64,000 nt of DNA from Halorientalis litorea (GTDB lineage: Archaea; Halobacteriota; Halobacteria; Halobacteriales; Haloarculaceae): positions 2,356,001 to 2,420,000 of the forward strand of contig NZ_CP095482.1 of NCBI RefSeq assembly GCF_023028225.1, written 5' to 3'. Positions 7,123-51,176 of this stretch are shown here, in pieces. The notes beneath the pieces are model-generated. The model saw only the letters and a list, made by a program, of their open reading frames with translations, had not been told where the DNA came from and did no database searches. Numbering within the stretch: the stretch's first letter is position 1; each line of letters begins with the position of its first letter. The position numbers were made by a program, and so were the translations under genes.

Positions 7123-7613
7123 AATCCCAGTAACGTCAGACTCCCCTCGACGACGTTCTGCGGGAGGTACTGAGGGGCGTAGAAGACGACGACTGCAGCC
7201 ACGGCGAGTTCGAGACCTGTCACGGCGACCGTGACGGCACTCGCGTACTTGCTGCTCGTCGTGACGCCCGCCGGCAGGCCGAACTCCCTGCTCCACGGGT
7301 AAAACAGGGCGATGCCGCGCCGACTGCCGACGATGTCGAGGACGTAGTGCGTGAGGACACCGATCCAGACGTACTGGAGGTTCCCGAAGACGGCCGGGAA
7401 CGACATGAAGAGTGCCAGCACCGGGAGGTTGTGGAGCGTCTTCCGATGTTTCCCGAAGGCGGTGTCCACGTCCGGGAACAGCGCGCCGAGCGTGACGGGA
7501 ATCGACACCTCGATGATGGTCACGAACGTGGCCACGTCGCCCGACGGTTCGAGGATGTAGCCGAGGCCGATGCTCAACAGCACCGCGTTGAGGACGTGTC
7601 CGTCTTTGTTCAT
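7119..7613 (-). CDS. Membrane-bound metal-dependent hydrolase-like protein (YdjM/DUF457 type)
   Basis: 164-residue membrane protein with four predicted helices. It has LGALFPDVDTAFGKHRKTLHN in the first half and LTHYVLDIVGSRRGIALFYPW in the second. The pairs PDVD, HRKTLHN and HYVLD are the conserved acidic and His residues of the LexA-regulated/YdjM membrane hydrolase family; the substrate is unknown for the family. The ATG at 7613 is preferred over a GTG further up because the first helix starts soon after it. Convergent with the PHP gene, sharing the CTAG stop overlap. Confidence 0.75.
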   Translation of the reverse strand: MNKDGHVLNAVLLSIGLGYILEPSGDVATFVTIIEVSIPVTLGALFPDVDTAFGKHRKTLHNLPVLALFMSFPAVFGNLQYVWIGVLTHYVLDIVGSRRGIALFYPWSREFGLPAGVTTSSKYASAVTVAVTGLELAVAAVVVFYAPQYLPQNVVEGSLTLLGF

Positions 7614-7673
7614 GCCAGCGTCACTGCACGGCCGGGACATATGCCTTCCCGTTGCCGGCGACGGCTGGCGGTT

Positions 7674-8201
7674 TCAGCTGTCACCTGTCCGCTCATCGAT
7701 ACGACAGCGTAGCTCCGAGAGTGCGGCACGGGCACCGCGCTCCCGGACTGTCGCTCGGTCCCCGTCGAACACGTACCGCTCGGTGGACACCGTCGACGCG
7801 TTGCGTCCCCACTCACCGGCGTAGGCGACGGCGACGAAGACGGTGCCGACGGGCGTCTCCGCGCTCCCGCCCTCGGGGCCGGCGACGCCCGCTGTCGCAA
7901 CACCCCACGTCGTCTTCGCGGTGTCGCGCACGCCGCGTGCCAACTCCCGGGCCGCCGGGTCGCTGACGACGCCGTGTTCGTCGAGCGTCTCACGGCTGAC
8001 GGCGAACAGTTCCCGGAGGGAGTCGTAGGAGTACGGCACGACAGCCCTGTCGAGGTAGTCGCTCGCACCCGGGGTGGCCGTCAGCAGTGCCGAGAGGACA
8101 CCGCCGGTACACCCCTCGGCGACGGCGACGGTCTGGTCCGCCTCGCGCAGGGCCTGTCCGACTTCGCGTTCGACCGGCGGGTCGGCGGCGAACTCTCGCA
8201 T
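7674..8201 (-). CDS. CinA C-terminal domain protein (NMN amidohydrolase-like)
   Basis: 175 residues forming a free-standing CinA-C domain. Bacterial members (PncC) deamidate nicotinamide mononucleotide to NaMN in pyridine nucleotide salvage. Motifs in order: VAVAEGCTGGVLSALLTATPG (usual form AES-TGG; here EGC replaces ESC), VVPYSYDSL, GVVSDPAARELARGVR, and GVATAGVAGPEGGSAETPVGT, which is the family core. Length matches stand-alone CinA-C proteins. The ATG at 8201 is chosen; TTG at 8207 would add two residues. It is divergent from the secretion cluster starting at 8393. Confidence 0.88.
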   Translation of the reverse strand: MREFAADPPVEREVGQALREADQTVAVAEGCTGGVLSALLTATPGASDYLDRAVVPYSYDSLRELFAVSRETLDEHGVVSDPAARELARGVRDTAKTTWGVATAGVAGPEGGSAETPVGTVFVAVAYAGEWGRNASTVSTERYVFDGDRATVRERGARAALSELRCRIDERTGDS

Positions 8202-8392
8202 AGCCAACCCGAGGGACTGGCCCAGTATGAAATCGGCGATGTTACACCCCGTGACGCGCTGAAAATAATGAAGATAAAATCATGTCTGCTTATATTTCTG
8301 GAACCAATTCCGTGTAGTATTTATCATTTGACTACTCAGTATGCAAACGAAGGGTACGTGGTGCGGATCGAGACACGACCTCGATACTAACT

Positions 8393-9055
8393 ATGCCAGA
8401 AAAAATCAAACTGACACGTCGCCGGGCACTCGCCGCGCTCGGCGTCATTGGTGCGGGTAGTGCAGCGGCAGGTGCAGGAACGTTCGCGGTTTTCAGTGAT
8501 ACGGAATCGAGTACCGGCAACCAACTCAGTGCTGGGACGCTCGACCTCGAGACGGGCAATACACAGACGATAACGTTCTCGGGGACCGACATCAAGCCGA
8601 CCGACACGGGGAACTCGGCAGTCGACTTGGAGAAGAACACCGGGTCGACCATCCCGGGGGACCTCTCGGTGGCAATTCCGAGCGGCGGGATCACCAGTAG
8701 TGAAGGCGACAACGTCCCTGCCGAGACGAACACTGACACCACCGACGGCGGCGAACTAGACGACCAGCTCGAATTCAAGCTTTGGCTCGGCCTCGGTGGC
8801 GCGACGGACAGCACGTTCGATTCGAGTACCGACATCGGCCTCAACAGTGACGGGACGACGACGACGAGCAACGACGGTGGCTTCGAGACGGCAAGCAACT
8901 ACGACGGAACGACGTGGAGTGACGTCATCACGGACTTCGCCGGCCCCGTGACGTTCAACGTCGAGTGGAACTTCCCCGGCTTGGGGAGCACGAACAACGC
9001 AGCGCAGGGCGACACCATCAGCGTGGATTTCGACTTCACGCTCCAGCAACAGTAA
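8393..9055 (+). CDS. SipW-dependent signal protein, TasA/camelysin-like (1)
   Basis: 220-residue secreted protein. The N-terminus is KIKLTRRRALAALGVIGAG followed by a hydrophobic stretch and the processing region FAVFSDTESSTGNQLSAGTL, which is the signature of SipW-type substrates such as TasA and camelysin. The mature part is Asp/Ser/Thr-rich, all beta in appearance, with no cysteine, as in donor-strand fibre subunits. It is followed by a paralog and by a signal peptidase, which supports export and assembly on the cell surface. The 186-bp upstream gap holds AT-rich stretches (TAGTATTTATCATT near 8314-8328) suited to a promoter. Function inferred, not shown. Confidence 0.82.
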   Translation: MPEKIKLTRRRALAALGVIGAGSAAAGAGTFAVFSDTESSTGNQLSAGTLDLETGNTQTITFSGTDIKPTDTGNSAVDLEKNTGSTIPGDLSVAIPSGGITSSEGDNVPAETNTDTTDGGELDDQLEFKLWLGLGGATDSTFDSSTDIGLNSDGTTTTSNDGGFETASNYDGTTWSDVITDFAGPVTFNVEWNFPGLGSTNNAAQGDTISVDFDFTLQQQ

Positions 9056-9108
9056 GTCGTCCACGAGGCTCTGGGACTCAGTGCGGACGCGGAGACGCTC
9101 ACGACACG

Positions 9109-9735
9109 ATGGGTTCGGGTGATATCACGCTGACGCGTCGTCGGCTACTCGGTGGAGTGGCAACTGTGGGTGTCACCGGTGCCGGCGTCGGTGCGGGGAC
9201 GGCAGCGCTGTACTCAGACACCGAAACCAGTGCCAGCAACGGACTGAGTGCCGGAACGCTGAATCTCACGCTCGACGGACAGGACACGACGGTACAGTTC
9301 CTCTCGGAGACGGGTATCGCGCCAGGTGACAGCGGGACGGCGACGATGACGGTGGCCAACGCCGGGTCGGTGACCGGCTACGTCGATGTCGAAGTCGCGT
9401 CCGTGACGAACGCCGAGAACGGCTGTGCCGGAAACGAGAACAGCGTCGATAACTCCTGTGGTGACCCCGGACAAGGACTCGGCGAGTTACAGGACAATCT
9501 TGAAACCGAGGCGTACTTTCAGAACGGTCCCACGTTGTGGGGGCCGACGACGGTGGCCGCGGAACCGAACGCGGGGGACGTGTACGACGTGGACTACGCG
9601 CTGTCCGGCGGCGCGTCGGACCAGTTCGTCCTGGACTGGTCGCTCCCGGCCGGGACGGGCAACGAGGCACAGACCGACAGCGTCAGCATCCAACTCACGT
9701 TCAGACTCGACCAAGAGGTCGACGCAGGACTATGA
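9109..9735 (+). CDS. SipW-dependent signal protein, TasA/camelysin-like (2)
   Basis: 208 residues, paralogous in layout to the preceding gene. N-terminus DITLTRRRLLGGVATVGVTG, then hydrophobic core and AALYSDTETSASNGLSAGTL. The mature domain has ETGIAPGDSGTATMTVANAG, typical of the camelysin/TasA beta-sandwich, and a single pair of Cys (CAGNENSVDNSC) that may form a disulfide. The end reads QTDSVSIQLTFRL, like the closing strand of TasA proteins. Its stop codon overlaps the ATG of the signal peptidase (ATGA), a sign of coupled translation. Start at 9109 rather than the longer in-frame extension, because the signal sequence begins here. Confidence 0.85.
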   Translation: MGSGDITLTRRRLLGGVATVGVTGAGVGAGTAALYSDTETSASNGLSAGTLNLTLDGQDTTVQFLSETGIAPGDSGTATMTVANAGSVTGYVDVEVASVTNAENGCAGNENSVDNSCGDPGQGLGELQDNLETEAYFQNGPTLWGPTTVAAEPNAGDVYDVDYALSGGASDQFVLDWSLPAGTGNEAQTDSVSIQLTFRLDQEVDAGL

Positions 9736-10280
9736 GCGAACTCCAAGGCACTGCCCGGACTGTCGGCGGTGTGGTGGCACTGTTGGCAGTCGTCACCGTC
9801 GCCGTGCTGGCGATGCTGTTCGTCGCGCCGAGCGTGGTCGGTGCGGAAGCCAGTTACACCGTCCTCTCGGACAGCATGTCGCCGAGCATCAACGCGGGGG
9901 ACGTGGTGGTCGTGCGCGGGACCGATCCCGCAGATATCTCCGAGGGCGACGTAATTACATACAGTGCGACGCGTCAGGGTGGGCCTGACCGCGTGACACA
10001 CCGCGTCGTCGGCGTCGAGGAGACGGCCGACGGCAGACAGTTCCGAACGAAAGGCGACGCCAACGAGGACCCGGACCCGAACCCGGTTCCGGCCGCCGAT
10101 GTCATCGGGACGGTGTGGTTCACGGTGCCGATGGTCGGCTACCTGTTCGTGTTCGCGGGGACGGACCTCGGACTGGTCGGGTTGGTAATCGTGCCCGCCG
10201 TGTTGCTCGTCCTCAACGAACTCTACACGCTGGTCAGCGAGACGGAGACGACGGACGAGACGGAGGACGAGCCAGTATGA
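9732..10280 (+). CDS. Signal peptidase I, archaeal/SipW type
   Basis: 182-residue membrane protease that would cut signal peptides of the flanking exported proteins. One helix near the N-terminus (about 11-36) and a second plus third near the C-terminus (about 126-165). Catalytic block SDSMSPSINAGD puts the nucleophile at Ser48; RVTHRVV gives His90, which replaces the Lys general base of most bacterial enzymes, as known for archaeal, ER and SipW peptidases; KGDANED supplies Asp109. Starts inside the stop of the upstream TasA-like gene and its own stop overlaps the PKD gene start, so the three are one operon. Confidence 0.93.
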   Translation: MSELQGTARTVGGVVALLAVVTVAVLAMLFVAPSVVGAEASYTVLSDSMSPSINAGDVVVVRGTDPADISEGDVITYSATRQGGPDRVTHRVVGVEETADGRQFRTKGDANEDPDPNPVPAADVIGTVWFTVPMVGYLFVFAGTDLGLVGLVIVPAVLLVLNELYTLVSETETTDETEDEPV

Positions 10281-10750
10281 TGCGGCCCCGGAACGCCGTC
10301 CGGACTGTCCTCGTGGCGGCGGTACTAGTCGGCCTCGTCGGGACGTTCGCCGCACCGGCGTCGGTCGCTCAATTCAGCGACGCACACGACGGTACTGGAC
10401 AGGTGAGTGCCGCACAGTACGGTTCCGGTGGCGGCGGTGGCGGTGCCGTAACCGCGGACGCTGGTGGCCCGTACAGTGTCGACGAAGGGAACGGCAACTC
10501 GGTGACACTCGACGCGAGCGGCAGTTCCACCAGCAAAGGGAACCTGAACGGGGGACAGGCGGGCTACCAGTGGACGATACTCGGCGGGCCGGGTAGCCTC
10601 CAGCAACCGACGAACCAAGAGACGGTGACGTACAACCCCCCGAACGACGTGGACGGTGACACCACCGTGACAGTCGAAGTGACCGTGACGAACAACAAGG
10701 GCGACACTGACAGCGACACCGCGACTATCACGGTCAACGACCTCGGTTGA
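10277..10750 (+). CDS. Secreted PKD-domain protein with SipW-like processing region
   Basis: 157 residues. Arg-containing N-terminus and hydrophobic helix (RTVLVAAVLVGLVGTFAAP), then VAQFSDAHDGTGQVSAAQY, which echoes the FSDTE...G...SAGTL stretch of the two TasA-like proteins upstream. After a Gly-rich linker comes one PKD-type beta-sandwich (about 62-155): ADAGGPYSVDEGN, VTLDASGSS, YQWTILGGPG and DTDSDTATITVND. PKD domains mediate adhesion or protein contacts outside cells. Overlaps the signal peptidase stop; ATG at 10277 and at 10280 are both possible. Its stop lies directly before a hairpin with T-run. Confidence 0.82.
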   Translation: MMRPRNAVRTVLVAAVLVGLVGTFAAPASVAQFSDAHDGTGQVSAAQYGSGGGGGGAVTADAGGPYSVDEGNGNSVTLDASGSSTSKGNLNGGQAGYQWTILGGPGSLQQPTNQETVTYNPPNDVDGDTTVTVEVTVTNNKGDTDSDTATITVNDLG

Positions 10751-10757
10751 GTGCCCT

Positions 10758-10781
10758 CACGGCTAACGCCGTGGGCTTTTT
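10758..10781 (+). terminator. Hairpin with T-run after the signal peptidase operon
   Basis: CACGGC/GCCGTG stem with loop TAAC, then GGCTTTTT. It starts eight bases after the PKD gene stop and would end the operon. The same segment resembles, on the minus strand, the left end of the IS element at 18354 (see findings), so it may be a co-opted mobile-element end. Confidence 0.6.
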
Positions 10782-10858
10782 CATCGTGTCGCTGCAACTC
10801 GGAACGGCCTCGATTTACCCTCCTCGAGGAGACGACGTTCGCAGCCCAATTACTGAAA

Positions 10859-10882
10859 TCAATATCTATAACAAGATATTGA
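10859..10882. repeat. Perfect 9-bp inverted repeat in AT-rich gap
   Basis: TCAATATCT and AGATATTGA flank ATAACA. The gap from 10782 to 11037 holds no convincing gene; it is AT-richer than its surroundings, with further AT-rich stretches at about 10974-10991 and 11003-11012 that may be the promoter of the gene at 11038. The role of the repeat is unknown. Confidence 0.6.
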
Positions 10883-11037
10883 CTCCTTCCGTGCTGCTGT
10901 GCAGTCGCCTAAAGGCTGGACCTGGGCGTCGAATTGACGTTCTGGCGCGGGATTTGATGGTTGGCCAAAGTGCAAATATTAGTATTGATACTCGAGAAGT
11001 CACGTATATTTGTCCAGAAGGTTCATCTCTACCTGAG

Positions 11038-11397
11038 ATGGGTGTTGAACAAACTCGGTGGCTCACCTTGGATGGGGTGTCGTTCGAGGCGGAGGCGTTC
11101 TCCCGCGTCTGGCTCCTCGCGCTGGCGACGTACGGCGTCGGTGACATAGTGACCACCATCGGCCTCGTGTGGTTCAGTCCCCTCCACGTCGAGGCGAACC
11201 CCGTCATCGCCGGAGCCATCGCACTCTTCGGCGGCGGGGGGTTTCTGGCACTCAAACTGCTCGTGTTCTACCTCGCCCTCGGCATCAGCCTCACCGCACT
11301 CGCCGACGAGGACCGACTGGTGTTCTACGGACCGCCGCTCGTGTTGACCGTCCTCGGCGTCGCCGTGACGGCCCACAACATCGCGCTGGTCGTTTAG
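11038..11397 (+). CDS. Small polytopic membrane protein, unknown function
   Basis: 119 residues with three to four predicted membrane helices (LLALATYGVGDIVTTIGLVW, AGAIALFGGGGFLALKLLVF, ISLTALA, LVLTVLGVAVTAHNIALVV). No catalytic motif recognised. Conserved-looking features are GDIVTT and HVEANPV between helices. A longer in-frame reading from 10747 would run through an intergenic hairpin and AT-rich sequence unlike coding DNA here, so ATG 11038 is chosen. Its stop overlaps the stop of the convergent TasA-like gene by a few bases. It lies within the secretion cluster, but a link is only positional. Confidence 0.65.
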   Translation: MGVEQTRWLTLDGVSFEAEAFSRVWLLALATYGVGDIVTTIGLVWFSPLHVEANPVIAGAIALFGGGGFLALKLLVFYLALGISLTALADEDRLVFYGPPLVLTVLGVAVTAHNIALVV

Positions 11398-12194
11398 TTC
11401 CTCGCCCGCAACTGGAAGCGTACGTCCACGGTCAGCGCGTCGCTCTGTATTTCGTTGCCCGTCGACGCCGGCACCTGCCAGTCGACGACGACCTCCGCCT
11501 CGGTTCCCGGTCCCAACTGTTCACCGTCCGCCGGGTCTGCGTCGGCGATGGCCGCGAGCGGCTTCGCCCCCTGTCCGGTTCCGTAGAGATACTCGGTCGT
11601 TCCGTCGGGGTAACGGACGCTGACGACGACTTCGACGGCCTCCGACAACTCGCCCGCGTTCGGGGAGGTGTCGACGCCCGCCTCGGGGCCGACGATGCCG
11701 TTCTCGAAGTCTTCGACGCGCACGTCCGCCACGACCAACTCGCCCGGCTGGGTCCCGGCGTTTCGGAGGACGAGATGCTCGCGGCCGCTATCGCCGGGAG
11801 CGACGCCATCGTACTGGAAGAGGACGCCGGACCCGACCGCTCGCAGGGCGACCGACCCACCGGACTGTCCGCCGCCACCACCGCCACCAGCCGTCGACAC
11901 CCTGTCCGGTGTCGCCGTCGCCCGCTCGGTCGGTGTCTCCGGCGGTTCCGGCGTCCCCGTCGGCTCCCGGTCGCCAGGCGTTGCCGTGTCGGTCACGACG
12001 ATGTCGCCGTCAGGTCCCGTCGGCGTGAGGTCGACGCGTGTCTGATTCTCGTCGGCCGGACCGATGTCGCCGATGAACGCTGTCAGCCCCGACCCGGCGA
12101 TGACGGCGATGAGGAGCAACAGAAGGAGCAAGAGATACCGTCGCCAGTTCCGCCCGTCCTCCTCGTCCGGGTCCTGTCGGGTACTGGCACTCAT
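11394..12194 (-). CDS. Membrane-anchored TasA/camelysin-like surface protein
   Basis: 266 residues. A charged cytoplasmic N-terminus (MSASTRQDPDEEDGRNWRRY) precedes one Leu-rich membrane helix (about 22-42, no cleavage site of the SipW type). A Thr/Pro-rich stalk (TPTGPDGD...TPEPPETPTERATATPDR, about 58-100) and a Gly run lead to a C-terminal domain with GVAPGDSGREHLVLRNAGTQ, DVRVEDFENG and QSDALTVDVRFQLRARN. This matches GIAPGDSG...ANAG...QTDSVSIQLTFRL in the protein at 9109, so a related beta-sandwich is likely. It could be an anchor or minor subunit of the same surface structure. ATG 12194 chosen; a longer in-frame N-terminus adds unrelated Arg/Pro-rich sequence. Confidence 0.72.
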   Translation of the reverse strand: MSASTRQDPDEEDGRNWRRYLLLLLLLLIAVIAGSGLTAFIGDIGPADENQTRVDLTPTGPDGDIVVTDTATPGDREPTGTPEPPETPTERATATPDRVSTAGGGGGGGQSGGSVALRAVGSGVLFQYDGVAPGDSGREHLVLRNAGTQPGELVVADVRVEDFENGIVGPEAGVDTSPNAGELSEAVEVVVSVRYPDGTTEYLYGTGQGAKPLAAIADADPADGEQLGPGTEAEVVVDWQVPASTGNEIQSDALTVDVRFQLRARN

Positions 12195-12404
12195 CGCTCG
12201 GAGGTCCGACAGTAACGGCGTGCTGGGGCGACACTCGACCGGCAGTCGTGTCCGGGGCACCGGGCTGGGCCGCCCCCTCTACTGCGGTAGCCGCCCCGCT
12301 CGGTCCCGCGGTGCATACGTCCCGCTTGGATGCGCATCGGTTTGTATCTGACCTTGTAGCACCGAGTTGGAAAGACACAGGTTCCGGGCGTCACCACTCC
12401 CCGT

Positions 12405-13505
12405 ATGGACTACGAGACGCCGCAGTTCTTTCGGGTCATGCAGTATGCCGAGCGGGCGGACCGGGATGTCGTCGACATGGTGAGCGGCAACCCCGACTGG
12501 GAGCCACCGGACGCGCTCCGGGATGGCCTCCGCGAGTACGCCGACAGCGACCCCGAGGCGTTCCAGTACCCCGCGAGTGAGGGATGGGCACCACTCCGGG
12601 AGGAGATCGCCACCCGCCGGAACGTCCCCGTCGAGCGAGTCGTCGTCACGAACGGTGCCGGCGAGGCGAACCACCTCGCCATGGTCGAAGCGTTGGACCG
12701 CGACGCCGGGAACGAAGTCCTCCTGACGGACCCGGTGTACCCCTACTACGCCGGCCGGGTGAACCTCCTCGACGGCGACGCGCGGTACGTCCCCGTCGAC
12801 GACGCGGGCCGCGCCGACTCCGCCGCGGTTCGGGACGCCGCGACCGAGGACACCGCCGTCATCGCGGTCAACACGCCGAACAACCCGACCGGCGCGGTGT
12901 ACCCCGAGTCGACCCTGCAGGAACTGGCCGCCGTCGCCGAGGACTACGACGCCCTGCTGGTCTGTGACGAGGTGTACGACCACTTCGATCACACCGGCGA
13001 GTTCACCAGCGCGCTCTCCGTCGACTCTCCCAACCGAATCGTGACGAACTCCTTCTCGAAATCGATGGCGATAACGGGCTTTCGCGTGGGCTACGCCGTC
13101 TTCCCCGAGCGGCTGATCGACCGCGTTCGGACCCGCCACATGCTGACGAACGTGACCGTCAGCCGTCCCGCACAGTACGCCGTATACACTGCACTCCGGG
13201 AGACGCCGCCGGACTACTACGCCGCCAACCGCCGTCTGCTCCAGTCCCGCATCGAGTCGTTCACCGACGCTCTCGACGACGCCGGAGCCGAGTACACGAC
13301 GCCCGAGGGCGGGTTCTACGTGCTGGCTCGGTTCGAGGGCTTCCCGGGGACGCTCGCCAACGTGAAGCGACTGATAGACGAGGCGGGCGTCGCGGGGATG
13401 CCCGGCGAGGCGTTCGGGGAGTCGCGGGCCGACTGGCTCCGGTTCGCGCTGGTCACGCCCCGTGCCGAGGCGGCGGCCGACAGACTCGCCGACTACTTCG
13501 GCTGA
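12405..13505 (+). CDS. PLP-dependent aminotransferase, class I/II
   Basis: 366-residue fold-type I aminotransferase. Substrate-cofactor motifs: SGNPDWEPP near the N-terminus, NGAGEANHL (phosphate-binding region, about 83-91), NTPNNPTGAVY (156-166), CDEVYDHF (187-194) and SFSKSMAITGFRVGY, with the PLP Schiff-base Lys219 and Arg227. The end has GGFYVLARFEG and FALVTP. Amino acid specificity cannot be told; the sequence is of the aspartate/aromatic aminotransferase group. The start is ATG 12405 about 210 bp from the divergent TasA-like gene; the end overlaps the convergent MFS gene by 13 bp. Confidence 0.92.
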   Translation: MDYETPQFFRVMQYAERADRDVVDMVSGNPDWEPPDALRDGLREYADSDPEAFQYPASEGWAPLREEIATRRNVPVERVVVTNGAGEANHLAMVEALDRDAGNEVLLTDPVYPYYAGRVNLLDGDARYVPVDDAGRADSAAVRDAATEDTAVIAVNTPNNPTGAVYPESTLQELAAVAEDYDALLVCDEVYDHFDHTGEFTSALSVDSPNRIVTNSFSKSMAITGFRVGYAVFPERLIDRVRTRHMLTNVTVSRPAQYAVYTALRETPPDYYAANRRLLQSRIESFTDALDDAGAEYTTPEGGFYVLARFEGFPGTLANVKRLIDEAGVAGMPGEAFGESRADWLRFALVTPRAEAAADRLADYFG

Positions 13506-47747: not shown

Positions 47748-48308
47748 CTACGCGTCGGGACCGGTGAACTCGGTCAAGGTAGCTGTTGACCCGCCGTCAG
47801 CTGGGACGTAGACCACATCGAGGTCGGCGTCGGAGCCGACGGGGAAGCGAATGAAGTCACCGGACGAGACAGCGGGTTCGCCCGAGATATCCGAGCTGTT
47901 CGTTCCCTCGTATCGCGCGTGACTGGCCGTCGAATCAGCGTAGAGTGACTCGGGAGCAGTGTTCGCAGTGGGTGCATAACCGGAAGCGTTGGCGAACGCG
48001 ACCCATGGTGTGTTGTAACTGGTGATTGCGTTCCCACCGTTAGAACCATTTTGCCCCCGGATAATGATTTCATTTGCTCGGACGGTTTCACCACTGTCGT
48101 GGGTGATGGTTAGGTTCCCGTCGTCGCTAGTTGCTTCGGTATAGTCAGTGTTGAAGCTGACAGTCGGTGTGGCACTCTGTGTGTTCCCCAGCCCCAGCAC
48201 GAAGGAGGCGATGACGGCCGCCAGGATGACGGTAATTGCGACCATCAGGATGACCCCGATGACCGGACTGACTGCATCGTCGTCGGTTAACAGTTTTTGA
48301 ATTCGCAT
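47748..48308 (-). CDS. Type IV pilin (1), VSPVIG class
   Basis: 186-residue prepilin. Short charged leader MRIQKLLTDDDA, then VSPVIGVILMVAITVILAAV and IASFVLGLG: the conserved H-domain of haloarchaeal pilins, with prepilin peptidase (PibD) expected to cut at the DA/VS junction. The mature head is Ser/Thr/Asn-rich beta structure with NGSN sequons, ending FTGPDA. Shares a 137-bp identical block with the next pilin gene. AGGTTTATACTC on the coding strand about 15-25 nt before the ATG looks like a TATA box, so it may have its own promoter. Confidence 0.93.
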   Translation of the reverse strand: MRIQKLLTDDDAVSPVIGVILMVAITVILAAVIASFVLGLGNTQSATPTVSFNTDYTEATSDDGNLTITHDSGETVRANEIIIRGQNGSNGGNAITSYNTPWVAFANASGYAPTANTAPESLYADSTASHARYEGTNSSDISGEPAVSSGDFIRFPVGSDADLDVVYVPADGGSTATLTEFTGPDA

Positions 48309-48462
48309 CGTTGATAGAGTATAAACCTACTTTACTTATTGCTTTGCACTAAAACAACCGCTGTAAATAGTTGATTAAGTAGCTATTACTTCGACAACAG
48401 ACGAGGTAGTGCTGTCGCTATCGGGTCTACATTCACTACAAAAAACGGAATTAGCGCGCTGT

Positions 48463-49011
48463 CTACGCGTCGGGACCGTTGAACTCGGTCAACGTCGCAG
48501 TGTTACCGGAGTCCGCCGGGACGTAGACGATGTCGATCTCGGCGTTGGAGCCGACAGGGAACCGGAGGAAGTCACCGGACGAGACAGCGGGTTCGCCCGA
48601 GACATCCGAGCTGTTGGTCGCTTTGTAGCGGAGACCGGGTGTGTCGCCGTAGGTCCCGCTTGGCTCGGTTGCCGGCCGTGAGTTAGTACTGTTAGCAAAC
48701 GCAATCCACGGAGTGTTCCAACTCGTGACGGAATTACCACCGTTGGAGCCGTTCTGCCCCCGGACGTAAACCTCGCTTGCGAGGACGGTTTCACCACTGT
48801 CATGGGTAACGGTTAGATTACCCTCGTCGTCGTTGAATTCCGTATAGTCAGTGTTGAAGCTGACAGTCGGTGTGGCACTCTGTGTGTTCCCCAGCCCCAG
48901 CACGAAGGAGGCGATGACGGCCGCCAGGATGACGGTAATTGCGACCATCAGGATGACCCCGATGACCGGACTGACTGCGTCGTCGTCTGTAAGCAGTTCT
49001 CGCACCTGCAT
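48463..49011 (-). CDS. Type IV pilin (2), VSPVIG class
   Basis: 182-residue prepilin with leader MQVRELLTDDDA and the same H-domain as pilin 1. The head domain differs in the middle (NSTNSRPATEPSGTYGDTPG) but keeps YVRGQNGSNGGN, TNSSDVSGEPAVSSGDFLRF and LTEFNGPDA. Adhesion pili of haloarchaea use several such subunits. TTTATAAG on the coding strand about 27-34 nt before the ATG is a clear TATA-like box. Transcribed leftward, 154 bp from pilin 1. Confidence 0.93.
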   Translation of the reverse strand: MQVRELLTDDDAVSPVIGVILMVAITVILAAVIASFVLGLGNTQSATPTVSFNTDYTEFNDDEGNLTVTHDSGETVLASEVYVRGQNGSNGGNSVTSWNTPWIAFANSTNSRPATEPSGTYGDTPGLRYKATNSSDVSGEPAVSSGDFLRFPVGSNAEIDIVYVPADSGNTATLTEFNGPDA

Positions 49012-49163
49012 GGCTAACCGTTAATATGGAGGTGTACTTATAAATTTGGGTCAGCACGGTCGCTGAAACGACAGTTTGTATGTGGTCATTAACACCCCCA
49101 CCGAATCGCAAGACGGGGCGTGCTAATGGTGCGTTTACGGTCGGAAAAAAGCGTAAAGACTGC

Positions 49164-49685
49164 TTACGCGTCGGGGCCGCTGAACGTCGCTAGCGTGGAC
49201 GTCTGTCCGTCGCCACCGTCGTAGATGATGCGGAGTTCCGCGTCCGAACCGACGGGGAACCGGAGGAAGTCACCGGCACCGATTGCCGTCTCTCCACCGA
49301 TGGACGTGCTGTTCGTCCCTGCCGATTTGAAGTTCCCACTCGGGTACGGACTGCTGGCGTTGGTGAAGTGTGACCACGCCGTGTTGTAGTTCGAGATGTC
49401 GTTCCCGCCGTTCGAGCCGTTCTGCCCGCGGATGAACACCTCGCCAGCCGCGATTGTGGAACCGCCGTCGTGGGTAATCGTCAAATTCCCGCTACTCTGT
49501 CCGCTGAGCTTGCTGAACTCGGTCGTGAAACTCGCCGTCGGCGTCGTCGAACTCACCTGCTCACCGAGGCCGAGTACGAACGTTGCTATGACTGCCGCGA
49601 GGATGACGGTAATCGCGACCATCAGGATGACCCCGATGACCGGGCTCACCGCGTTGTCGTCGTCGAATAGTTGTTTCAGTTGCAT
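49164..49685 (-). CDS. Type IV pilin (3), VSPVIG class
   Basis: 173-residue prepilin, leader MQLKQLFDDDNA and H-domain VSPVIGVILMVAITVILAAV then IATFVLGLGEQ. Amino acids are conserved with pilins 1 and 2 but codons differ, so it is the older paralog. Head: FIRGQNGSNGGNDISNYNTA, GETAIGAGDFLRFPVGSDAE, ending LATFSGPDA. ATG 49685 gives the standard short leader; a GTG at 49742 would add 19 unsuitable residues. The nearest TATA-like box (49806-49814) is about 125 nt upstream and lies inside an inverted repeat. Confidence 0.93.
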   Translation of the reverse strand: MQLKQLFDDDNAVSPVIGVILMVAITVILAAVIATFVLGLGEQVSSTTPTASFTTEFSKLSGQSSGNLTITHDGGSTIAAGEVFIRGQNGSNGGNDISNYNTAWSHFTNASSPYPSGNFKSAGTNSTSIGGETAIGAGDFLRFPVGSDAELRIIYDGGDGQTSTLATFSGPDA

Positions 49686-49786
49686 GGTTGGGGTGGGGTC
49701 ACACGCTCGCCCGCGGGCCGTGCGGGCGACGCCACCGACCACGGAACGCCGCAGTTCTGGTCCGGTCGGTTGTAGGGCGTGCTTAG

Positions 49787-50025: not shown

Positions 50026-50109
50026 ATGACTGCGGCCACAACTCGTCTGCCCGGGACGCCGTTGGAGGCGGTGTCGATTCTGGCTCGGCGGCCGGGTGAG
50101 ACAGGATGA
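50026..50109 (+). CDS. Possible 27-residue leader peptide before mnhE
   Basis: ATG at 50026 opens a 27-codon frame (MTAATTRLPGTPLEAVSILA then RRPGETG) whose TGA overlaps the mnhE ATG (ATGA). It lies where a transcript from the box at 49981-49994 would begin, so it could be a leaderless micro-gene coupled to mnhE. No homology judgment is possible by eye; codon use looks normal for the genome. It may equally be untranslated leader. Confidence 0.3.
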   Translation: MTAATTRLPGTPLEAVSILARRPGETG

Positions 50110-51176
50110 CGACTGGCCGGTTCGTGGTACCGGTGAGCGAATCGGTGACCATCCGAAACACGGTCGCGCACGCCGTCCGCCGGGCACAGGACTCCCCGGA
50201 CGCCGAGCCGGTGGTCCACTTCGTCTATCCGCTCGCCCGCCGACTCAGGTCGGGCGAGGATGCCACCGCGACGGAGTTCCTCGAACGGGTCACCGTCTGG
50301 GCCCGCGAGGACCTCGGCGATGACGAGGGGGCCGTGGACATCGAGACAACGGTCGTCGGTGCCGACCAGTACCTGTTCGGGCCGGGCGATTACGCCGATG
50401 CTATCGAGTCATACGCGCGCGAGCAGGATCTCGATACCGTCCTGCTGGACCCCGAGTTCAACCCGACCGGTGCGACGCCCCTCCTCCCGCCACTGGAGGC
50501 GGAACTCGAACGCGCCGGACTGACGATTTCAGAGGCACCGGTGGAACGACAGACCCGCCGCCCGCGTCTCGTTCGCCCCGGCGGCCTCGGCCAGTACCTG
50601 CTCCTCGCAGGCCTTTCGTTTGCGTTTTACCTCCTCGTCAGCGGGTCACTCGCCGTCTTCGAACTCGTGACGGGTGCCATCAGTGCCGCCGTCGTGGCGA
50701 CGCTCCTCTGGCGCGTGTCGCTGACTGGGCCGACGCGGCCCGCGACGCTGCTGGGCCGCGTCGCCCGAATGGGGCTGTACGTCCCCTACCTCCTGTGGGA
50801 AATCGTCAAGGCGAACGTCGCCATCGCCTACGTGGTGTTGCACCCGAACCTCCCCATCGACCCGAAGATGGTGGAGTTCGACGCGGCCGTCTGGTCGGAA
50901 TTGCCGGTGACGACGCTCGCGAACTCCATCACGCTGACCCCGGGGACGCTCACCGTCGACGTGACGCGCCGGCACTTCACCGTCCACACGCTGACGGACG
51001 GTGCCCGCGAGGACCTGTTCGCCGGTGGGTTAGAGCGTGCCGTCCGGTTCGTCTTCTACGGCCGCGGGCCGGCCGACATCCCGAGTCCCCGTGAGCGCGG
51101 GGAAGGTGTCGAGCAAGGGGCCGCCGACGGGACCGCTGGTACCCCCGCAGAGACCGACGGAGGGACCGCCGAATGA
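50106..51176 (+). CDS. mnhE: Mrp antiporter subunit E with N-terminal UspA-like domain
   Basis: 356 residues, about twice the usual MnhE. Residues 1-145 resemble a universal-stress-type alpha/beta domain (RFVVPVSESVTIRNTVAHAV; EPVVHFVYPLARR; DAIESYAREQDLDTVLLDPE). From about 158 the MnhE domain follows, with two to three helices (YLLLAGLSFAFYLLVSGSLA; VFELVTGAISAAVVATLLWR) and the conserved end YVPYLLWEIVKANVAIAYVV, then TLANSITLTPGTLTVDV. The Mrp complex exchanges Na+ for H+. First gene of an operon running to 58095; its stop overlaps mnhF (ATGA). Confidence 0.92.
   Translation: MTTGRFVVPVSESVTIRNTVAHAVRRAQDSPDAEPVVHFVYPLARRLRSGEDATATEFLERVTVWAREDLGDDEGAVDIETTVVGADQYLFGPGDYADAIESYAREQDLDTVLLDPEFNPTGATPLLPPLEAELERAGLTISEAPVERQTRRPRLVRPGGLGQYLLLAGLSFAFYLLVSGSLAVFELVTGAISAAVVATLLWRVSLTGPTRPATLLGRVARMGLYVPYLLWEIVKANVAIAYVVLHPNLPIDPKMVEFDAAVWSELPVTTLANSITLTPGTLTVDVTRRHFTVHTLTDGAREDLFAGGLERAVRFVFYGRGPADIPSPRERGEGVEQGAADGTAGTPAETDGGTAE

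Follow-up and report, generated by a model that had tools for sequence, protein, structure and literature searches.

A putative TasA-type fibre cassette in a haloarchaeon, with candidate donor-only and acceptor-only partners

Do the TasA-like genes at positions 8393-12194 of the window (the whole 64-kb stretch analysed, from the 3.2-Mb genome of a haloarchaeon in the Haloarculaceae) encode a surface fibre with its own signal peptidase, and what would start such a fibre and hold it at the cell? Read directly, the letters of this interval contain five genes and a small membrane gene, here g1 to g6. On the + strand, g1 (8393-9055, 220 aa) and g2 (9109-9735, start ATG at 9109, 208 aa) each encode a TasA-like subunit and are separated by an intergenic gap of 53 bp. 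The next gene, g3 (9732-10280, +, 182 aa), overlaps g2 by 4 nt (ATGA) and is itself overlapped by 4 nt (ATGA) by g4 (10277-10750, +, 157 aa). On the opposite strand lies g5 (11394-12194, −, 266 aa), which places it outside the operon; g6 (11038-11397, +, 119 aa) sits between g4 and g5 and abuts the latter. The sequence-only reading that drew attention to the locus described one operon with a homolog next door. The same-strand, close or overlapping arrangement of g1 to g4 agrees with this; g5, being inverted, is not a member of the operon. No RNA families were found in 7600-12600, nor any transposon-like terminal repeats flanking the cassette. The longest inverted pair (9623-9678 and 11439-11494) is TasA-domain coding sequence common to g2 and g5, on opposite strands.

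Both g1 (1.8e-8, 34.9 bits) and g2 (2.9e-7, 30.9 bits) match PF12389 (TasA/camelysin) above its curated cut-off of 22.5, the matches spanning the N-terminal 70-87 residues only. A profile of 36 mature haloarchaeal domains reaches B. subtilis TasA (5of1, 8aur) with E ~1e-14, covering positions 8-179 of 183, in keeping with the TasA-like identity first proposed, and matches AbpX weakly. A PDB search with the single g2 sequence found nothing real, TasA being reached only by the family profile. The AlphaFold (AF2) model of mature g2, a single-chain fold, has a mean pLDDT of 86; its low-confidence parts include the first 10 residues (the expected donor strand). Its best solved match is TasA (5of2, Z 8.2 over 132 residues, 3.5 Å; 8aur, Foldseek E 6.9e-4), followed by the archaeal bundling pilin AbpA (7ueg). 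On their own, the Z scores against TasA (7 to 9) are moderate, and it is the sequence profile that carries the family claim. Profile and predicted fold agree, and by both g1 and g2 are members of the TasA/camelysin family. Structure prediction had been suggested as a check, an unrelated fold to count against the proposal; the g2 model and that of the g5 domain (below) both match TasA best.

The signals of g1 and g2 carry a twin-arginine motif ahead of an uncharged hydrophobic stretch (TRRRALAAL and TRRRLLGGV, respectively). Among 90 TasA-like precursors the RR motif is present in 87, with alanine at P1 in 84 and phenylalanine at P2′ in 81. We assign the g1 and g2 signals to the Tat type from these features, and export would probably follow the Tat route. 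Cleavage (↓) is predicted at TFA↓VFSD in g1 and TAA↓LYSD in g2; together with ASVA↓QFSD of g4, these sites share a pattern of alanine, an aromatic residue and Ser-Asp. TasA, a SipW substrate that E. coli LepB processes poorly, likewise has an aromatic residue at P2′ (PMC10269814). The SipW-cognate signal model TIGR04088 matches g1 (2.1e-6) and g2 (6.2e-4) above its curated cut-off and nothing else in the 3.2-Mb genome. A strict scan for SipW-type signals in six frames of the 64-kb window returned g1, g2, g4 and one unrelated transporter ORF. With matches as sparse as these, chance is excluded as the source of the g1 and g2 signals. Two SipW-signal proteins had been claimed; both are borne out as g1 and g2, and the number was wrong, g4 being a third preprotein.

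After the predicted cleavage sites come the donor segments, VFSDTESSTGNQLSAGT in g1 and LYSDTETSASNGLSAGT in g2, and then the TasA domain. The TasA donor strand comprises residues 28-38, with F29 and F39 ten residues apart (PMC9674648), and in both pattern and spacing g1 and g2 fit an N-terminal donor strand with F29/F39-like residues. Counted from the aromatic residue, the next bulky one stands at +11 in 69 pilins; in 16 donor-type partners it stands at +10. A second haloarchaeal subtype (loci L047, L048, L054 and L037) has WSD-type sites, mostly no Tat motif, and a divergent peptidase.

The product of g3 has hydrophobic segments at both ends and passes the archaeal model TIGR02228 (3.5e-34), so that the reported His-type signal peptidase overlapping the second secreted protein is indeed present. 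Its score against the NCBIfam Bacillus SipW equivalog (1.3e-29, 103 bits) lies below the 190-bit cut-off. Ser48 and His90 are invariant in the peptidase alignment, a Ser/His pair and not Ser/Lys. As classified from these matches, g3 is a SipW-like Ser/His (ER-type, S26B) peptidase and not the Bacillus SipW equivalog. It looks dedicated, since TIGR04088 matches g1 and g2 only and a second, longer signal peptidase sits elsewhere in the genome. The latter (contig position 447413), the genome's other clear signal peptidase, is a 388-aa open frame with a C-terminal extension bearing more membrane segments.

Among 293 genomes of the order, 72 have PF12389 and 115 have the peptidase. In neighbourhoods picked by their TasA match the peptidase is present in 39 of 40, and TasA-like genes are present in 38 of the 45 picked by a peptidase match; the two sets share several genomes. 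The cassette thus recurs in many haloarchaea, and this linkage upholds the idea that the TasA-like proteins have a signal peptidase of their own.

The mature g4 protein starts after ASVA↓ as QFSDAHDGTGQVSAA. It combines a SipW-type signal with a TasA-like donor segment (10370-10414), in which an aromatic residue is followed by a bulky one at +10, as F29 is by F39 in TasA. Past this segment are a Gly linker and a complete PKD domain (10493-10735; PF22352, 3.7e-9), and no TasA domain. The PKD protein said to overlap the peptidase is therefore real, and PKD as a general partner is not: a g4 homolog of Halorhabdus amylolytica has the domain, while g4-plan proteins beside the peptidase in other haloarchaea show weak repeat-type matches or Ser/Thr-rich tails after the donor segment. 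Under a strict rule, donor-type proteins without a TasA domain make up 34 of 500 ORFs near the peptidase versus 5 of 2509 far from it. The RR motif is found in 12 of these 34, and those 12 may be divergent pilins. In B. subtilis the N-terminus of TapA gives the first donor strand, and TapA's own Ig fold is complete (PMC9674648, PMC10151520). With a donor segment and a complete Ig-type PKD domain, g4 could give a strand and could not accept one. The donor is present and the TasA domain absent; sequence and analogy suggest that g4 is a donor only, like TapA in role. The comparison is one of role, as no TapA match to g4 was found in Pfam and NCBIfam scans.

The remaining TasA-related protein, g5, has a strongly hydrophobic, apparently uncleaved N-terminal membrane segment (~12072-12131), a Thr/Pro/Gly-rich linker and a C-terminal TasA domain (11397-11876), a plan kept in many loci. 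Over its C-terminal 160 residues it can be aligned with the pilins, beginning at the strand that follows the donor. The AF2 model of the domain (mean pLDDT 85) has the TasA fibre 8aur as its best solved match (E 9.6e-6, TMq 0.67; Z 8.8), and the structural alignment begins only at TasA residue 37, so that donor residues 28-38 fall almost entirely outside it. Judged by alignment and model, g5 is a true TasA domain lacking the donor strand, an acceptor only. Anchors of the g5 class form a single clade of 34 (support 99/90) that branches beside g2-type subunits and spans several haloarchaeal families. The simplest account is a single origin of the anchor from a pilin, followed by its retention across these families. 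The membrane-anchored homolog proposed nearby is confirmed in g5, and such anchors recur in many haloarchaea. Neither partner is universal: of 86 loci, strict rules identify an anchor in 36 and a donor-type partner in 33. Beyond the order, no strong match was found in a thin sample of 197 genomes of the phylum.

The small membrane protein g6 (DUF5658-like) has homologs in ~40 of the loci. They lie within ~7 kb of all 19 strong anchors, under 1 kb away in 15 of the 19, and occur also in dozens of genomes that have no anchor; their DUF5658 matches are below cut-off. g6 may be an integration-site marker or a part of the system, and its membership is uncertain.

In congeneric genomes G098, G137 and G212 the distance from the CinA-like gene to the aminotransferase is 608, 602 and 210 bp, respectively, versus 4.2 kb here, and no matches to g1 to g6 were found between the two genes. 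Since these genes are adjacent there with none of g1 to g6 between them, the cassette as a whole was either acquired here or lost from those genomes. In G098 and G137 the ~600-bp gap contains a different small gene that does not match g1 to g6; of this gene G212 has only a remnant.

Taking sequence, models and the analogy with TasA together, we consider it probable that the cassette makes a donor-strand-exchange surface fibre, with a dedicated starter and a membrane anchor; such a fibre may have a part in biofilms. In such a scheme g1 and g2 would be exported via their Tat-type signals and cut by g3 just ahead of the aromatic residue (A↓xFSD). Cleavage would free the N-terminal donor strand (x-F-S-D ... 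L/V-S-A-G-T) to fill the groove of the next subunit, and subunits would join head to tail. The first strand would be given by g4, as a TapA-like first subunit or a tip adhesin. In g5, where signal and donor strand are replaced by the membrane segment and a long Thr/Pro-rich linker, the domain would accept the last strand but could not give one. It would act as a tether, holding one fibre end at the membrane across the cell envelope. In the TasA monomer, residues 48-61 occupy the molecule's own groove, which opens on assembly (PMC9674648). We speculate that a Tat-exported pilin could fold inside the cell much as the TasA monomer does, its signal peptide blocking the donor strand until cleavage. 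The full combination, in which folded subunits are exported by Tat, a donor-only adhesin starts the fibre and a once-arisen acceptor-only protein tethers it with no need of usher or sortase, is tentative, and we hold it to be possible rather than probable.

The same genes could instead specify secreted TasA-domain proteins that remain unpolymerised, either soluble or attached to the S-layer, the SipW site being an export feature only. Many haloarchaeal SipW-signal proteins are multidomain and 400-600 aa long, a build as fitting for surface decoration as for fibres. The donor segment, however, is conserved in both sequence and spacing, and a paralogous clade has lost it but retained the domain and acquired a tether, a pattern best understood if the donor and acceptor functions are important; we think absence of polymerisation unlikely. 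Far less credible is that g1 and g2 are metalloproteases of the camelysin type, as the name of PF12389 (camelysin metallo-endopeptidase) might imply. Neither protein has any histidine, and thus the zinc-binding histidines and HExxH are absent, on which ground the M73 identity was rejected; TasA, the structurally studied member of the family, is moreover a fibre protein (PMC9674648).

For g5 the question is whether it stays at the membrane. An acceptor-only domain would equally cap a growing fibre, so g5 might be a capping or assembly-limiting subunit, or be cleaved and released. Cleavage is possible because its membrane segment looks like the GAGxGT end of SipW-type signals, an end that some anchors keep. 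Against this, the segments of g5-class proteins have a hydropathy of 2.3 to 2.9 versus ~1.3 for the signals of TasA-like proteins; the g5 class lacks the A↓xFSD site and has a linker of 16-279 residues after the segment. A cap or a released protein in place of an anchor appears rather improbable to us, and the tethered fibre remains our preferred reading.

As such a fibre system, the cassette resembles Bacillus subtilis tapA-sipW-tasA in the TasA family and fold, the SipW-like peptidase, the A↓xF-x-D cleavage with donor segment, and an Ig-type partner that bears a donor segment but no TasA domain (g4 here, TapA there). Bacillus cereus sipW-calY1-bc_1280-calY2 likewise has two camelysin genes beside one SipW (layout according to PMC10151520); unlike it, the cassette is archaeal, with Tat-type signals, a PKD partner and a membrane anchor. 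The Sulfolobus threads (Saci_0406, 7pnb) share the donor-strand fold and have a proposed cap or nucleator subunit next door; they differ in a lower structural match and in having a Sec-type signal, which the general signal peptidase removes (PMC9715654). With the archaeal bundling pili (AbpA of Pyrobaculum calidifontis, 7ueg; AbpX, 9sj2 and 9rhp) the cassette has in common an archaeal TasA-related donor-strand fold, the g1/g2 family being much closer in sequence to TasA than AbpX is. In the cassette a dedicated SipW and an anchor paralog are linked, which may set it apart from the Pyrobaculum locus. The paper of Wang et al. (2022) on archaeal bundling pili is said by others who cite it to note TasA homologs in archaea.

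The TasA family is thus not new to archaea, and by sequence and model the cassette appears to be a haloarchaeal variant of TasA fibre systems. In the literature searched, which covered few subscription papers, we found no description of a haloarchaeal TasA, SipW or donor strand, nor of the cassette, its Tat-type signals or the division into donor-only and acceptor-only partners. Amyloid staining is seen in biofilms of Haloferax volcanii, for which the gene assignment is no more than speculative (PMC4180959). The haloarchaeal biofilm matrix has no known structural proteins, and the cassette offers named candidates; carriers among cultivable species include Haloferax gibbonsii, Haloarcula japonica and Halococcus morrhuae. 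The cassette also bears on how TasA-type fibres start and attach to cells, its candidate donor-only and acceptor-only partners amounting to a natural experiment that splits donor-strand exchange. Tat export, if true, would mean that the subunit folds prior to donor-strand release, and the scheme as a whole would supply a full parts list, base included, for a donor-strand fibre that uses neither usher nor sortase. Elsewhere in the window (47748-49742, −), three tandem genes encode N-termini with (S/T)FVLGLG, typical of archaeal type IV pilins; the trio lies in a low-G+C dip (0.56) beside tRNA-Gln (50046-50143).
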